Assembly: GCA_040882465.1 (NCBI GenBank)
Contig: JBBEBG010000026.1
Span: 46,518-110,517 of the forward strand
Origin: Gemmatimonadota bacterium
Lineage (GTDB): Bacteria; Gemmatimonadota; Gemmatimonadetes; Longimicrobiales; Gaopeijiaceae
Direction: 5' to 3'
Length of the DNA stretch: 64,000 nt
The translations under genes and the position numbers were made by a program. The notes under the pieces are model-generated. The model made no database searches. It was not told the DNA's origin and worked only from the letters and a program-made list of their open reading frames with translations. This document shows positions 40,601 through 59,056 of this stretch, piece after piece (position 1 is the stretch's first letter; each line of letters begins with the position of its first letter).

Positions 40601-41041
40601 ATGGCGCGATCCCTCAACAAGGTCATGCTCATCGGAAACCTCGGCGCGGACCCAGAAGTCCGCACCACCCCGTCGGGTGCGAAGGTCGCCAAGCTCTCCC
40701 TCGCCACCAATCGCACCTTTCAGGATCGGTCGGGACAACAGCAGGAGAAGACGGAGTGGCACCGGGTGACCTTCTTCGGCAAGCTCGCAGACATCGTGGA
40801 GCAATACACCTCGAAGGGTGATCGGCTTTACATCGAGGGACGGCTCGAATACAGCCAGACAGGAGAGGGCGACGACAAGAAGTACTGGACGGATATCGTC
40901 GCGCAGGAGATGGTGATGCTCGGATCGGGTGGTGCCGAAGGGGGAAGCGGAGCGAGCACAGGGCGAGGTGGATTCCGCGCTTCACCACCCGCCGACTCCG
41001 GAAGCAACCTCTCCGAGCCGGACGACGACCTCCCGTTTTAG
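40601..41041 (+). CDS. ssb: single-stranded DNA-binding protein
   Basis: This 146-aa protein has an OB fold (LNKVMLIGNLGADPEVRTTP, EKTEWHRVTFFGKLADI, GDRLYIEGRLEY) and a Gly/Ser-rich linker with the acidic C-terminal tip DDDLPF that binds partner proteins. It protects single-stranded DNA in replication and repair. It is divergent from recF across 189 bases. Confidence 0.96.
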   Translation: MARSLNKVMLIGNLGADPEVRTTPSGAKVAKLSLATNRTFQDRSGQQQEKTEWHRVTFFGKLADIVEQYTSKGDRLYIEGRLEYSQTGEGDDKKYWTDIVAQEMVMLGSGGAEGGSGASTGRGGFRASPPADSGSNLSEPDDDLPF

Positions 41042-41054
41042 GCGATCGGGAAAA

Positions 41055-41076
41055 CTAGTGTCCCGCGGGACACTAG
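41055..41076 (-). terminator. perfect palindrome with T run, terminator for the minus-strand gene
   Basis: The arms CTAGTGTCC and GGACACTAG flank a CGCG loop. On the minus strand the hairpin is followed by TTTT, which fits an intrinsic terminator for the B-domain gene, whose TAG stop lies inside it. It also sits just after the ssb stop and could work for both strands. Confidence 0.6.
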
Positions 41077-41426
41077 CGGTCGGTCGCCCCCAGGTCCGTC
41101 TCCCAGAGCCCCAGCAACTCCTTCTCGAAGCTCTCAGGATTGGCGCGGTATTCCGTCGCCCACTGATGGAAGTCGGGAAGTGCGAGTTTTCTCGAGATCC
41201 GGTCGGTCGCGAGCCTGACGATGTCGGTGTAGGAAAGTGGCTCGTTCCCCTGGCCTTCGAGCTCCCCCGCCGCATCCCGCGCGAGCACGTACATCTCGTC
41301 CGCGGTGAGACGCAGGAGGAGATCCGCGACGCGCGCCGAGCAATAATCCAGATATTTCGCCCGGAGCACCGGTTCAGAGGGCTCCTGTAGCGGGACTTCC
41401 GGATCGGTTTTTCCTGGTTGTGTCAA
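41073..41426 (-). CDS. uncharacterised protein made of one B domain
   Basis: I do not recognise this 117-aa protein from known families. Residues 20-108 form a helical domain that aligns without large gaps to parts of the genes at 42132 and 43974. The shared marks are an LR..Y..Y start (residues 21-28) and the end motif L-P-x-F-x-x-W-x-x-x-Y-x-A-N-x-x-x-F at residues 83-100. No signal or membrane segment. The TTG at 41426 is set by a strong GGGGGAGG five bases upstream; an earlier TTG at 41495 lacks such a site. It is downstream of the RHH-like gene. Confidence 0.7.
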   Translation of the reverse strand: MTQPGKTDPEVPLQEPSEPVLRAKYLDYCSARVADLLLRLTADEMYVLARDAAGELEGQGNEPLSYTDIVRLATDRISRKLALPDFHQWATEYRANPESFEKELLGLWETDLGATDR

Positions 41427-41430
41427 CGTC

Positions 41431-41453
41431 GCCTCCCCCGGGGGAACACCCCC
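41431..41453 (-). promoter_or_regulatory. strong ribosome-binding site next to a C-run/G-run hairpin
   Basis: On the minus strand GGGGG, TGTT and CCCCC are followed at once by the GGGGGAGG ribosome-binding site of the B-domain gene. The C run can pair with the upstream G run, leaving the site free, or in part with the site itself, hiding it. This could be a translational switch or merely chance in G/C-rich DNA. Confidence 0.35.
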
Positions 41454-41526
41454 ACAATTACCCCGAACCTTCCCTCCTGTGCCGAAAAGCGTCAAGTGTT
41501 TCGGCGAGGGCCGGGGTGCTCAGGGG

Positions 41527-41745
41527 TCAGACGACGCTCGAACTGCCCTCGGAGAGCGGGTCCGATTCGGGGGAGGTGTCTCGAAGGTGGCGGTAAATGG
41601 AACGGCGGGTGAGACCGTAGAGGAGGACGCGGCTGAGGAACTCAGGATCCGATTGCGCCACTTCCTCGACCTGCGCTGCGACGTCCCTGGGAAGGTGAAC
41701 TTTAAGCTCGACGGGGCAGGTTTCCCACATAAGTGCTGTGTCCAT
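41527..41745 (-). CDS. small ribbon-helix-helix-like protein
   Basis: The 72-aa product has the pattern of a ribbon-helix-helix (CopG/Arc-like) regulator: a short strand VELKVHLP, a helix RDVAAQVEEVAQS, a turn, and a second helix PEFLSRVLLYGLTRRSIYRHL. The tail is acidic and Ser-rich. Codon use fits the genome. It is 100 bases upstream of the B-domain gene, on the same strand, and downstream of an AT-richer region with repeated dyads that could be its operator. The start is uncertain; no purine-rich site precedes the ATG at 41745. It may be a regulator or an antitoxin; nothing decides between them. Confidence 0.5.
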   Translation of the reverse strand: MDTALMWETCPVELKVHLPRDVAAQVEEVAQSDPEFLSRVLLYGLTRRSIYRHLRDTSPESDPLSEGSSSVV

Positions 41746-42131
41746 CGGTGCTGAAGGGTGGACCCCGAGTCTGGGAGGCGAGCCGGCCGCTGTGTGGACC
41801 CTCGAAGGGACGCTCGACGGGTCGGCCCACCCCAAAAGTCGAACGGATGATACGAATGGAATTCGGCCGACGCAAGGCTTTTCCGTAACTCGTTGTCACA
41901 CAACAGCAATTCTGTAACTATAGCGTCTTCAACGGGTTACGGAGGCGTTGAAAATGACAACTTCACCTGTTCCGCGTCCTTGCCTCCGTTCGTTTTTTTC
42001 GAATTATTGATGAGAATGTCAAGGAGCGGCGGCACTTCCAGAGGAGAACTTTTCGCGAAGGCCCCATCCGAATGTCGCGGAATTTTTTCGAAAAAAGAGA
42101 AACGCCGAGAGGACTTGCTCGCACCGATTCG
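41746..42131. other. 386-base intergenic region with multiple dyad repeats
   Basis: No gene is supported here. The region is AT-richer than its surroundings and holds GTAAC at 41885-41889 and 41914-41918, GTTAC at 41936-41940 (part of a CCGTAAC/GTTACGG inverted pair, 41883-41889 with 41936-41942), a GTTGT-CAC-ACAAC dyad at 41892-41904, and TTCAACG (41928-41934) with CGTTGAA (41946-41952). Further on are a T7 run near 41992-41998 and a palindrome of TTTTTT-CG-AAAAAA near 42083-42096. It looks like a control region for the minus-strand genes on either side. Confidence 0.5.
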
Positions 42132-42764
42132 TCAGGGAAGCGCCGAGCGGAGGAAGGCAAAGAGGGTGTGGTCGTCGAACGCTTCGAAGCGGATGCGGAT
42201 CTCACTCGCGTCTTCGCTCCGAAACAGGTCGGCGGTGCGGCAGCTTTGGACTCCCTCGGAGCGGTGGAACTGGATGAACCCGTTCCACCCCGACGGAGCT
42301 CCGGTCAGGCAGAGGGCCGCGTACCATCCGTCCCCGAAATCGCGCACCGCAACGGTGACGGGGTCCTCACGCCGAGGCGCGGAGAGGATCTCGAGCTCTT
42401 CCAGGTACGCAGCGCGATTCGCCAGATAAAGGGGGATCCATTCCTCGTACGGAGGAAGCGGGAGGATCGCGCGTGCATATCTACGCGCAATCGCGAGGGG
42501 ATCCCTTCCGTCCGCATCTCCCTCTGCCTCGGCCCACGCCGCCGCCCGACGGTAAAAGGGACGGAGCGCGTTGCGGGTCATCAAGGAGAGGAGCCCCATC
42601 GCCTCCCGCTCGCAGTAACGCTCGTACAGCCCGCGTAAGCTCTCCGGAACTGGGAAGGTCCCGCCACGGTAACGGAGCATCCGGCGCGGAGTTCCCGGTG
42701 GTGCCCCCGGGGTGCGGGTAGCCAGGTCCTCCCGCTGGGCGCGCAAGTCGGTGGAATCCACCAT
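42132..42764 (-). CDS. uncharacterised two-domain protein, order B-A
   Basis: This 210-aa protein has a helical B domain at about residues 41-127, ending in LPLPPYEEW, YLAN and AAY with the same spacing as in the genes at 41073 and 43974. A second domain, A, follows at 134-209: Trp147, W-x-G-F at 160-163, RTADLF at 176-181 and a final LRSAL. Domain A is also found in the gene at 43974, but in front of B there. No export signal. Its ATG overlaps the upstream stop as TGATG, so it is coupled to the 299-aa gene. Function unknown. Confidence 0.72.
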   Translation of the reverse strand: MVDSTDLRAQREDLATRTPGAPPGTPRRMLRYRGGTFPVPESLRGLYERYCEREAMGLLSLMTRNALRPFYRRAAAWAEAEGDADGRDPLAIARRYARAILPLPPYEEWIPLYLANRAAYLEELEILSAPRREDPVTVAVRDFGDGWYAALCLTGAPSGWNGFIQFHRSEGVQSCRTADLFRSEDASEIRIRFEAFDDHTLFAFLRSALP

Positions 42765-43663
42765 CAATGCACGCTCCCCGACCCGATGGGCGCCCCGCGC
42801 GGTGTAGGCACGACGACCTTCTCGAGCGACGGCACCTCCGGGAGATCACCCAGACTTCGAAGTGAGTCCCGTTCTCCGAACGTCGTCATCAACTCACGGA
42901 GGGAGCCGAGCCGCTCCGGCTCGAACCGCCCGAGGAGACGGACCATTCCCTTCCGCAGATTGCCGAGCAGCACACGCGTCTCCGAAAGCGTGCGCGGAAT
43001 ATCGAGCGGGATCTGATAAAGCTGCGCCCCCAGCGCGTCCCTCATGGGACCTCTGAGGAGATCCCGGCCCGGGAAGGCTTCCGCCAGTCCCGCCTCCAGC
43101 TCCGGACTGGGCGTGGATCTCGCGGTACGCACGACGAGGGTGACGGCGTCGTAATCCAGGTGCGCTCGTACGACTCCCCCTGCGGGAAGGAGGAGGCGCA
43201 CGGCCGTCCCTTCATGGAGGTCGAGGTCCTGGCAGAGATCACGGAATCCAATCCGAAGGACGGTCGCTCGCGTCAGCGGTCCGAATCCCGCACCGCGCAG
43301 CGCACGAAGCGCCATGTTGAAGGTGAAGGCGCGCGCCCTCTCGATCCCGTTGGCATCGGAGTCCGCCACCACGCGGCAGAGGCTCCGCAAGCCGGACGGG
43401 TAGAGCCACCCCATCACCACGAGGGGCCCGGAGAGGTCCACGACCCGATATTCGGCACTCCCGAGATCGATCACGTCCGCACGCACTGGATCGCTCCCGT
43501 CCACGACGACGCCGAATCCGATGTCCTGGATTCGCCCCCCGGGTGGACTCCGGTCCGCGCCGTCGCGAAAGGGCAGGACCGCTCGAGTGAGCGAGACTTC
43601 GAAGGTCCCCGTGAGCGCGGACTCGGACTCGGCGCCGGACTGTGTGTTCAGGTGTGGCTGCAT
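42764..43663 (-). CDS. uncharacterised 299-aa protein coupled to the B-A gene
   Basis: I do not recognise this protein. It starts at an ATG with GAGAGA seven bases upstream. No signal or membrane segment is clear. The middle has alternating short strands (FGVVVDGSDPVRADVIDLG, EYRVVDLSGPLVVMGWLYP) and a helical part (ERARAFTFNMALRALRGAG). The last third is charged and probably helical (TRVLLGNLRKGMVRLLGRFE). The stop overlaps the next start by one base. Codon use is like the rest of the genome, so recent transfer is not indicated. Confidence 0.65.
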   Translation of the reverse strand: MQPHLNTQSGAESESALTGTFEVSLTRAVLPFRDGADRSPPGGRIQDIGFGVVVDGSDPVRADVIDLGSAEYRVVDLSGPLVVMGWLYPSGLRSLCRVVADSDANGIERARAFTFNMALRALRGAGFGPLTRATVLRIGFRDLCQDLDLHEGTAVRLLLPAGGVVRAHLDYDAVTLVVRTARSTPSPELEAGLAEAFPGRDLLRGPMRDALGAQLYQIPLDIPRTLSETRVLLGNLRKGMVRLLGRFEPERLGSLRELMTTFGERDSLRSLGDLPEVPSLEKVVVPTPRGAPIGSGSVH

Positions 43664-43973
43664 CAGCGCGTCTCTCGAACCCGGGCCGAGGTTGATTCTC
43701 GCGGAAGGCCTGCCACCGTGGCTCCGCCGACTTCCTCCAGATCCCGCGTCACCTGCGCGCCAGGAGGGGGGATCCACGTTAACGATTCCTTTTGACCGAT
43801 GGCAAGGGAATTCGCCGTCCTTGAGGCGCTGGTTGAACCAAGGACTCGTCTCGCTCGCCACACCTTGCAACGAGCGTGCCGCGGACTCGAGAAGGTCGCC
43901 CGTCCGCCCGGCTTTTTGGCTTGCTCGCCTATGACGCACCCGGCATCTTCCGACATCGTGTCCTCGCGGCGTC
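43664..43973. other. 310-base divergent intergenic region
   Basis: This separates the minus-strand 299-aa gene from the plus-strand A-B gene. Open frames cross it in both directions but none has supporting motifs. On the minus strand TTGCCA (43805-43800) lies 17 bases before TTAACG, a weak promoter candidate. Nothing else stands out. Confidence 0.35.
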
Positions 43974-44696
43974 ATGTTTTCGCGCCGCACCGACACTCAC
44001 GCCTCTGGAGGGTTCGTGCGGCTCGATCGCGTTCACCGACGTTCGATGGGATTTCTGGACCGCGAAGACGAGTGCTGGTCGTGTTTCTTAGTGACCTACG
44101 AGAGCGACGGCGGTCGGTGGCGCGGCTATTTCTCCTTCCGGCCGCGCGACGCCACCGGAGAAGAAGCGGACATCCGGACCGCGGACATCTTCCTGGAGGA
44201 TTCGGAAGGCCAGATCGACCGAAAGGCCCGGGGACTCGGGCGTCCTCTCCTCTCAGGACTTCTCTCCTCGGCGCTGCATGCCGCCGAGGGGAGCGTCGAG
44301 GCGCTGCCCCGGCTCAGGAAGTGGTTTCGCGCCGTGCTCCAGGAAAATGCGCGGGAGCTCGCCGGAGAGTGGGAGGCGGACCCCCACCCCGCCGGGGGCC
44401 GCACGATCGCGGACCTGCGGTCCATTTATGCCTCGTACCGGCTCGACCAGGTCGCCCACTTCATCACTCTCGTGCGATCCGAAGACTTCCAGGAGGCCGT
44501 CCGCCGGATTCTCGAGGGGAAGACCTTCGACTTTGGCGCGAAGGACCGCCTTCAATTCGCGATGATGGTGATCGAGTTCATCGAACGGCACCTTCCCCTC
44601 CCGCCCTTCGAAATCTGGGCGGAGGACTACCTGGCTCATCCCGATGCCTACCGGCTCTACGCACACACTCTTCACCGCACGGGAAGGTTGCCCTGA
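43974..44696 (+). CDS. uncharacterised two-domain protein, order A-B
   Basis: This 240-aa protein holds domain A at about residues 27-101 (Trp35, W-R-G-Y at 49-52, RTADIF at 68-73, LSSAL at 97-101) and domain B at 146-233 (LRSIYASY, then LPLPPFEIW, YLAH and DAY). Both domains match those of the gene at 42132 but in reverse order, joined by a helical linker with EALPRLRKWFRAVLQENAR. No export signal. The start may be the ATG at 43974 or the one at 44046; neither has a strong ribosome-binding site. Function unknown. Confidence 0.7.
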   Translation: MFSRRTDTHASGGFVRLDRVHRRSMGFLDREDECWSCFLVTYESDGGRWRGYFSFRPRDATGEEADIRTADIFLEDSEGQIDRKARGLGRPLLSGLLSSALHAAEGSVEALPRLRKWFRAVLQENARELAGEWEADPHPAGGRTIADLRSIYASYRLDQVAHFITLVRSEDFQEAVRRILEGKTFDFGAKDRLQFAMMVIEFIERHLPLPPFEIWAEDYLAHPDAYRLYAHTLHRTGRLP

Positions 44697-48700: not shown

Positions 48701-48748
48701 TAGGATTCCTGTCCGTAGGGCATCACAGTTCTGAGGAGAGTGGTTCGT

Positions 48749-48952
48749 TTGGAAGTCATCGTTCAGGAGGGCGAGAACCTCGAACGCGCACTCCGCAAGT
48801 TCAAGCGGAAGGTGCAGCGCTCCGGCCTTTATTCGGAGCTTCGCAAGCGCCGGTTTTACGAGAAGCCCAGCGCGCAGCGAAAGAGAAAGCGCGAAGCGGC
48901 GATCCGGCGCGAGCGCCGGCGTCAGCGACGGGACCCACGCCCGCGCATTTAG
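48749..48952 (+). CDS. rpsU: small ribosomal subunit protein bS21
   Basis: The product matches bS21 ([20 protein letters not shown]) with the usual highly basic C-terminal tail. It binds the 30S platform and takes part in translation initiation. The TTG at 48749 lies 10 bases after GAGGAG, while a GTG at 48740 in the same frame is only one base from it, so the TTG gives the better spacing (67 aa; 70 aa with the GTG). A strong promoter lies directly upstream. Confidence 0.92.
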
Positions 48953-57485: not shown

Positions 57486-59056
57486 CGCGGGCGGGGTTTG
57501 AGGGTCGCCACCGGGACGATCATCTCCTCGGGCGAGATGCCACCGTGGAGGAAGGCCCCGCGGTACCGGTTCTGGTACTCGCGAAGCTTCGTCGGATACA
57601 CGAGAAAGTAGTCCTCCAGCGCGAGCACGTATCCCGTCCCGATTCTCCCGTGCGGGATGCGGAGGTCGGCCGGATCAGAGGTCGCGAAGACCGCCTTCGG
57701 GTCCTCTGCCTTGAGATCGTATCCGAACTTAAAGCGGAGGTTCGAAGTCGCGTCCTTGCGCGCGAAAACCGTCGTGGGACGGTTGCAGTGGATCGAGCCA
57801 TGATCCGTCGTGAGGACCGTGGAAATTCCCTGCGCCGCGACCTCTCGCAGGACCTGCAGGAGGGAGGATCTTTCGAGCCAGGACCGCGTGAGCTCCCGGA
57901 GCGAGATCTCGTCGCGGGCCACCTCCATGAAAACCGGAGACTCGCCTCGCGAGTGGATGAGGAGGTCCATGAAATTGAAGACGAGGGCGACGACCCCCCC
58001 CTCGGTCTTGAGGGCAGAGGTCACGCGAGCACGGAGCCGCTCTCCCTCCCGTTCGGAGAAGATCTTTTCGTAGTGGACCGGGATGTCGCGTCCGGCAAGA
58101 CTTCGGAGATGGCGTGTGAGGAGCGGTTGCTCGAAATCGTTCAGGCTCCCTTCTTCCCCGATCCCCTCCCACCACCCCGGTCGGTCCGCCGCGATTCGCT
58201 CGGGGAATTGCCCCGAAAAGATGGCGTTTCGCGAATACGGGGTCGCGGTCGGGAGGATGGAGTAATAAAGATCCTCCTCCACGTCGAATAGCGGCGCCAA
58301 CAGAGGGCGCATGACGCGCCACTGGTCGAGTCGCATGCAATCCAACACGACGAGGAGGACTGGATTCCGGCCGAGCAGCGGGAAGAGGTATCGCGTGACC
58401 AGGTCCGTCGAGAGGGTGGGGCGATCGCCTCTGTCCCTCATCCAGAGGGGATACACCTCCTTCACCCAGACGCCGAAGTCCCGCCGCAGGTCGCCCATCA
58501 GGGAGTTCACCGAGTCGAGCAGCCCCGTCTCGCCCGCCGCCTCGAGCCGGATGTGCCAGTCCGTCAGCTCGCTGAAAAGCTCCGCGAACTCGGCGGGGGT
58601 ACGCGCCGCCTCCCGACGCTCTTCGAGCCTCCGGAATCCGGCCGCGAAGTCCTGCGCGACCTGTTGTTGGCGGATCGAGGGACCCTCTAGGATGCGGGTC
58701 ACCATCGAGAGGACCTGACGCGGGCTCGCCGGTTTCACGAGGTAGTCATCCACCCGCCGGCCGATCGCTTCCGTCATTGTCCGGTCCTCCTCGGACTTCG
58801 TGATCATGACCACCCGCGCGTGCGGATCCTCGCGGCGGAGGATCTCCAGCACCTCCAGTCCCCGCCGCCCCGGCATCCTTTCGTCGAGGAGCACAAGGTC
58901 GTACGGCTCGTCCCGGAGGAGGGCGAGAGCGTCGTCGCCGTTCGCGATCGCGTCCACGTGATAGCCGCGTTGCTGGAGGAAGAGACAATGGGGCCGAAGG
59001 AGCTCGACCTCGTCGTCCACCCAAAGGATCCGCTTCGCGGCACGGAGATGGGTCAT
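57482..59056 (-). CDS. PorX-like response regulator with PglZ phosphatase domain
   Basis: This 524-aa protein has a receiver domain (acidic pair WVDDE at 12-16, phospho-acceptor Asp58, Lys108 in LVKPAS), a helical middle, and a C-terminal PglZ domain of the alkaline phosphatase superfamily. The metal-site residues are visible: Asp239 in VVLDCMRLDQW, Thr272 in LPTATPYSRNAIFSG, and Asp-His in LTTDHGSI. This is the architecture of PorX, which in Bacteroidetes controls type IX secretion and cleaves cyclic oligonucleotides. Here it leads an envelope lipid operon. The ATG at 59056 gives the full receiver domain. Confidence 0.88.
   Translation of the reverse strand: MTHLRAAKRILWVDDEVELLRPHCLFLQQRGYHVDAIANGDDALALLRDEPYDLVLLDERMPGRRGLEVLEILRREDPHARVVMITKSEEDRTMTEAIGRRVDDYLVKPASPRQVLSMVTRILEGPSIRQQQVAQDFAAGFRRLEERREAARTPAEFAELFSELTDWHIRLEAAGETGLLDSVNSLMGDLRRDFGVWVKEVYPLWMRDRGDRPTLSTDLVTRYLFPLLGRNPVLLVVLDCMRLDQWRVMRPLLAPLFDVEEDLYYSILPTATPYSRNAIFSGQFPERIAADRPGWWEGIGEEGSLNDFEQPLLTRHLRSLAGRDIPVHYEKIFSEREGERLRARVTSALKTEGGVVALVFNFMDLLIHSRGESPVFMEVARDEISLRELTRSWLERSSLLQVLREVAAQGISTVLTTDHGSIHCNRPTTVFARKDATSNLRFKFGYDLKAEDPKAVFATSDPADLRIPHGRIGTGYVLALEDYFLVYPTKLREYQNRYRGAFLHGGISPEEMIVPVATLKPRPR

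Follow-up and report, generated by a model that had tools for sequence, protein, structure and literature searches.

Domains A and B, fused in both orders, belong to a core, vertically inherited gene block of Gemmatimonadota

The stretch analyzed here (the window) comprises 64,000 nucleotides (nt) of a Gemmatimonadota genome (GenBank assembly GCA_040882465.1, contig JBBEBG010000026.1, positions 46,518 to 110,517) and contains, between ssb and rpsU, a block of five genes. These encode a stand-alone domain B (B1), a protein resembling ribbon-helix-helix (RHH) regulators, two proteins in which domain B and a second domain, A, are fused in opposite orders (B-A and A-B), and a protein of 299 amino acids (G299). 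We found that the A domains share ancestry, as do the B domains, and that the block belongs to the vertically inherited chromosomal core of one Gemmatimonadota order. We tentatively propose that it encodes a heteromeric (multi-subunit) regulatory complex in which A and B may serve as interaction modules. The two domain families and the G299 family are unlisted in the libraries tried, yet they are core genes in a branch of common environmental bacteria.

A is homologous to A and B to B across the block

A first-pass annotation had placed domain B in the genes at 41073, 42132 and 43974 and domain A in the latter two, with the order B-A at 42132 and A-B at 43974, and had proposed a profile comparison as a check. 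Relatives were present in 39 of 58 related genomes, and from these the A and B families were assembled and aligned. The comparison (hhalign, family alignments of 19 to 31 members) revealed significant similarity between A of the A-B protein and A of the B-A protein (E=6e-18) and between the two corresponding B domains (E=6e-19), which bears out both the domain assignments and the permuted order. Furthermore, B1 matched B of A-B at E=2e-13 and B of B-A at 1e-14. Cross-domain and unrelated control pairs, including the G299 and RHH-like families, gave E values of at least 0.005, the exception being G299 fragments that overlap one another in sequence. The window proteins also match each other as single sequences (~1e-4). 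Taken together, these profile comparisons show that A shares ancestry with A and B with B. Kinship between A and the N-terminal part of G299, suspected from strand order, was unsupported by hhalign.

The fusion order is constant in the relatives (56 B-A and 79 A-B rows). In the B-A protein, B spans residues ~37-123 and A ~137-210, whereas in the 226-residue form of the A-B protein, whose family alignment has 23 invariant columns, A spans ~8-89 and B ~131-226. Domain A carries the motifs WNGF or WRGY, RTADLF or RTADIF, and RSAL or SSAL in the window. The end motif ascribed to B stood only in part. All its letters are present in the three window proteins, which end in LPDFHQW-ATEYRANPESF, LPPYEEW-IPLYLANRAAY and LPPFEIW-AEDYLAHPDAY and thus share W, Y at +4, A at +6, and Y or F at +11; across relatives, only LP..W is near-fixed, and variation at Y+4 and A+6 is seen in B-A proteins, among others. 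The proposal that A and B are separable modules agrees with their being fused both ways, found apart and, in one group of genomes, encoded by adjacent separate genes.

The block is chromosomal and vertically inherited

Genomes were given kinship labels (f1 to f9) from the genome search, f1 being the window's family and f2 its sister family. Of 77 loci obtained in a scan of named genomes, 76 were titled Gemmatimonadota or lower taxa; the single exception was a metagenome-assembled genome titled Gammaproteobacteria, with identical gene order. Most f1 genomes retain the order ssb, B1, RHH-like, B-A, G299, A-B, rpsU, in which the four genes from B1 to G299 are oriented opposite to the other three. 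Individual components vary. One subclade has lost B-A and retains G299 and A-B, and some f1 genomes lack A-B but retain the other block genes. In f2 the block is reduced to B1, the RHH-like gene and A-B, with the G299 gene in one genome. Just one of the f3 genomes searched has B1 and the RHH-like gene, and no A-B was found among them.

The B1 search was positive in 106 of 249 Gemmatimonadota genomes, adjoining the RHH-like gene, a count that includes other B-containing proteins, and the RHH-like protein was found in 87 of the 249, with one copy per genome. The pair of RHH-like protein and B is the most widely persistent and deepest part of the block. In several f7 genera, the RHH-like protein, B and A are encoded by three adjacent separate genes away from ssb, and this adjacency without fusion supports a functional link between A and B. 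In one f9 genome (L181:1877-6759), Ku- and LigD-like genes lie immediately upstream of the RHH-B pair. In f4, f5 and f6, B forms the N terminus of proteins of 260-300 amino acids with a methyltransferase-like C terminus, one of which matched Methyltransf_25 (E 2.4e-6). The S-adenosylmethionine motif is apparently degenerate in some of these fusions (L167-L177).

Protein distances correlate with those of gyrB (rho of 0.35 for A-B, 0.47 for B1 and 0.60 for G299, against a permutation maximum of 0.28). No relative was found in the plasmids, phages and viral contigs searched. Reduction of the block in the sister family and protein distances that follow gyrB mark it as core chromosomal and vertically inherited, not mobile. 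Domain trees separated the A-B, B-A and single forms by single branches, and B of A-B clustered with B of B-A (SH-aLRT 94), the forks being only moderately supported, as the alignments are short.

Library searches and predicted structures

The statement that neither domain belongs to a named family withstood all searches. The five window proteins gave nothing above cut-off against Pfam, NCBIfam, PHROGs and PADLOC, and among the many relatives scanned with Pfam and NCBIfam the Methyltransf_25 match was the sole one above cut-off. PDB sequence profiles provided no significant match. In the AlphaFold2 (AF2) model of the A-B protein, A has the topology beta-beta-beta-beta-alpha-alpha (pLDDT ~95) and B consists of five helices (pLDDT ~80). 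A Foldseek search of this model against PDB returned no match at E<=0.001. Against BFVD, viral matches of the Rad52/DUF932 type were discarded (E>=0.02, TM ~0.2, rmsd ~18), and a single match at 7e-4 was not credible, with a TM below 0.2.

G299 was modeled confidently by AF2, with a pLDDT of 86 and a pTM of 0.80. Its Foldseek matches to ExsC, YbjN and SigE recur. We take the order of strands and helices from residue ~131 onward to be that of the type III secretion chaperone/YbjN fold; this half of the model may thus have such a topology, a weak lead and not an assignment. The RHH-like protein passed none of the curated RHH profile cut-offs; the YlcI/YnfO model matched four of 31 members at E 0.043.

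Link to rpsU and a structured RNA upstream of A-B

The first-pass annotation had regarded the block as one system with the coupled G299 gene and the RHH-like gene. The five genes do co-occur in one family; the block is wider than that annotation delimited it, because A-B normally precedes rpsU and relatives have a small RNA between the G299 gene and A-B. In 75 of 84 loci, rpsU follows A-B in the same orientation and at most 200 nt away (median 92), whereas in the window ~4 kb with GT39-like, GT2-like and methyltransferase-like genes is inserted between them. Variation in bS21 is reported to alter gene expression in other bacteria (PMC9578407, PMC9976891), so that the link to rpsU is worth testing.

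The small structured RNA (gap RNA), present in ~20 relatives, measures ~75-100 nt. In the aligned sequences, a TTGACA-N18-TAgcTT-like promoter was recognized by eye; it is followed by a GCCAR-loop hairpin and then by a terminator hairpin whose loop reads UGCCAG. With a model made from six sequences, 24 loci were detected at E<1e-6, 18 of them distinct, and every match lies just upstream of A-B. Pairing was intact in 97.4% of the alignment cells, and nine of 19 pairs were changed on both sides (31 cells), compared with at most 58% and 8 cells in the slid-alignment control; these counts are biased toward the structure, since the alignment was fitted to it. The G-U pairs suggest that, of the two strands, the RNA of the A-B strand is the structured one. 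The gap RNA is antisense to what is likely the G299 leader. A search of 58 relatives gave nine strong matches (E<1e-11), one per genome, of which eight lie upstream of A-B, or of the G299 gene where A-B is missing, and the ninth adjoins the G299 gene; weaker matches occur elsewhere. In the one f2 genome with the RNA, it stands beside A-B, and the G299 gene is on another contig. No Rfam family was matched above the gathering cut-off, the best being ctRNA_pGA1 (26 bits versus 45). The same gap (e.g., L042, L044, L048 and L145) also contains, on the G299 strand, a conserved CTTGC-N16/17-TTATCG-like element with GTAAACAGAT in its spacer, which is probably the promoter/operator of the G299/B-A pair.

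Promoter-like site and palindrome upstream of the RHH-like and B1 genes

The RHH-like and B1 genes are preceded by a promoter-like site whose spacing recurs in several relatives. A conserved palindrome, CGTAAGTCGTTG-N5-CAACGACTTACG, precedes the RHH-like gene by some 130-200 nt; in the window, its inner half-site has degenerated. The half-site occurs in 68 of 96 regions upstream of RHH-like genes (95 sites versus 1-6 in shuffles), and a relaxed palindrome gave ~100 sites in 98 genomes versus 6 for the reversed pattern. A role as autoregulatory site of the RHH-like protein appears less likely: sites occur, upstream of pilin genes and near parAB, in f3 and f5 genomes in which no RHH-like gene was detected. 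The palindrome-binding protein is therefore probably a regulator other than the RHH-like protein. Identity with parS was ruled out, canonical parS sites being present in some of the same loci.

Type IV pilin promoters that are sigma-54-like also have the palindrome (GTAAGTCGTTGT...ACAACGACTTAC) upstream, and further sites lie near parAB, mnmG and Nif3-like genes. At L191:4793-4827, a half-site lies near the DnaA-box-like sequence TGTGGATAA, upstream of a Nif3-like gene and near bactofilin- and ParB-like genes; this region is possibly origin proximal.

Coordinates of the features

The open frames were located as annotated. Likely starts were deduced from the conserved protein parts and Shine-Dalgarno sites, and the proteins are shorter than the listed frames. 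The stop codon of the G299 gene and the start codon of the B-A gene overlap by one base (TGATG), from which the two are judged to be translationally coupled. Elsewhere in the window (57493-57591), ARAGORN detected a tRNA-Pro(CGG) whose 99 nt exceed the usual length.

Table 1. Positions of block genes, flanking genes and regulatory features (window coordinates unless a locus number is given)
Feature	Position	Strand	Remarks
B1, stand-alone domain B, 117 aa	41073-41426	-	TTG start at 41426 after GGGGGAGG; open frame to 41495
RHH-like protein, 67 aa	41527-41730	-	ATG at 41730; open frame to 41895; family alignment
B-A protein, 210 aa	42132-42764	-	ATG at 42764; alignment and hhalign
G299, 299 aa	42764-43663	-	Family alignment; AF2 model
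A-B protein, 226 aa	44016-44696	+	GTG at 44016 after GGAGG; upstream alternative ATG at 43974
ssb, conserved flanking gene	40601-41041	+	Same neighbor in most f1 loci
rpsU (bS21)	48740-48952	+	Normally directly downstream of A-B
Promoter-like site, RHH-B1	41847-41875	-	TTGCGT (41875-41870), 17-nt spacer, TATCAT (41852-41847); read from sequence
Palindrome half-sites	41884-41941		CAACGAGTTACG at 41884-41895 (-); CAACGGGTTACG at 41930-41941 (+)
Palindrome sites	Window 41884-41941; L190:4720; L203; L208; L248:3540, 3591; L256:3215, 6970		
Gap RNA, examples	L036:7080-7156; L033:6480-6556; L145:7556-7630; L052:1976-2052	+	~20 other loci

Possible functions of the block

In the regulatory complex that we tentatively favor, the RHH-like protein and B1 would form a DNA-binding unit. 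B-A, together with the chaperone-like G299, and A-B would use their B and A domains to share, or compete for, the same partners, and the output would be regulatory, exerted on the block itself and on the neighboring ssb and rpsU genes. In its support we count the domain homology with its controls, the block order between ssb and rpsU, the f7 adjacency, the persistence of the RHH-B1 pair, the proximity of A-B to rpsU, the RNA pairing, the promoter-like site and palindrome, and the tracking of gyrB. Several points weigh against this reading. Binding, DNA contact and regulation are all inferred from sequence and models; the A-B model has a pTM of 0.46, leaving the packing of A against B undefined; and the G299 fold matches fall short of significance (E 0.12-0.25, TM to target 0.29-0.41). 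Similarly, the RHH assignment is weak, the Arc-type Pfam model reaching E 0.014 in two of 31 members, and a genome search showed that the gap RNA is absent from the window and its genome. The fusion of B to a methyltransferase-like domain in other families makes a non-regulatory role possible.

We consider it rather unlikely that the genes are passive neighbors, unrelated and lineage specific, which share two common small Gemmatimonadota domains and are kept together by a stable region. Such an arrangement is consistent with the methyltransferase-like fusions of B, the dispensability of B-A in a subclade, the absence of A-B from part of f1 while other genes stay, and the occurrence of A alone in other conserved neighborhoods. 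Stand-alone A genes, one of which is located elsewhere in the window's own genome (L147:6301-6585), have a profile that matches A of both fusions at ~1e-20, and in f1 they are often beside small-conductance-channel-like, transglutaminase-like or ABC transporter genes (names according to sequence reading). However, the one-base overlap of the G299 and B-A genes argues for function-driven linkage, the f7 genes are adjacent outside the ssb region, and A-B is fixed before rpsU. In f9, a link between stand-alone A and neighboring small FTDTxGRxW proteins was unsupported.

Another explanation, which we regard as quite unlikely, is an accessory complex of DNA replication or repair that acts with Ssb, RecF and gyrase as a bacterial analogue, not homologue, of GINS. 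The helical B and beta-rich A domains mirror those of GINS, and their two orders mirror Gins51/Gins23 (PMC2861644). Nevertheless, GINS (PF05916) had no match in the window's genome at E<=10, with the control positive in four archaea, was not found in Pfam scans of all 31 A-B members and was not among the best 50 of 492 weak Foldseek matches of the A-B model to PDB. The conserved neighbors gyrB, recF and ssb and the Ku- and LigD-like genes at the f9 locus would fit such a complex; gyrB, recF and ssb are, however, co-linear housekeeping genes whose adjacency may be passive, and the f7 block genes are not near ssb. It is very unlikely that A-B and B-A are subunits of a GINS-like, pseudo-symmetric bacterial complex, independently evolved or too diverged for the kinship to be seen, that would work, together with a DNA-binding protein and a small RNA of its own, at genes for replication or the ribosome.

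Toxin-antitoxin and defense systems are normally patchy and mobile, and although antitoxin-toxin pairs are usually arranged in this way, as a small RHH-like gene with a small partner gene close behind it, we judge a locus with an RHH-type antitoxin, B as toxin and the A/B fusions as further components to be highly improbable, given the single RHH copy per genome, the fixed synteny, the gyrB-like distances, the lack of relatives in the plasmids, phages and viral contigs searched, and the lack of a PADLOC or PHROGs family for the five proteins.

The block is novel in that none of the known families or systems stood up to testing; a new mechanism is not claimed. Concrete, testable entry points are the fixed association with ssb and rpsU, the conserved palindrome and the RNA with its covariation.

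Comparison with known systems

Permuted pairs such as A-B and B-A are unusual, and to our knowledge the one known case that can be named is GINS, a core replication complex. GINS is the closest architectural parallel, and tests for membership of the block proteins in it were negative. In GINS subunits, a helical domain is joined to a beta-rich one, and paired genes carry the two orders (PMC2861644). The block shares with GINS (archaeal Gins51/Gins23; eukaryotic Sld5, Psf1, Psf2 and Psf3) two-domain subunits in both orders, as seen by hhalign and predicted secondary structure, B being helical and A beta. In contrast, its proteins have no sequence similarity to GINS, in its domain A the sheet is followed by two long helices, and it includes extra stand-alone B and A genes as well as RHH-like and chaperone-like partners.

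The RHH-like protein resembles ribbon-helix-helix regulators (Arc, YlcI/YnfO) in its small size, its strand-helix-helix-like pattern and its weak best model matches, but it stays below all cut-offs, and its B partner is a separate gene and not a sensor domain. With type III secretion chaperones and YbjN (ExsC, SigE, YbjN), G299 shares the predicted succession helix-three strands-helix-strand-helix from residue ~131; it differs in an extra N-terminal module, and the block contains no type III system. The gap RNA has two hairpins, the second a terminator, and is antisense to the likely G299 leader, as in the plasmid counter-transcribed RNA ctRNA_pGA1, whereas the gap RNA is chromosomal, has strong matches confined to its own locus and conserves its GCCAR loops.

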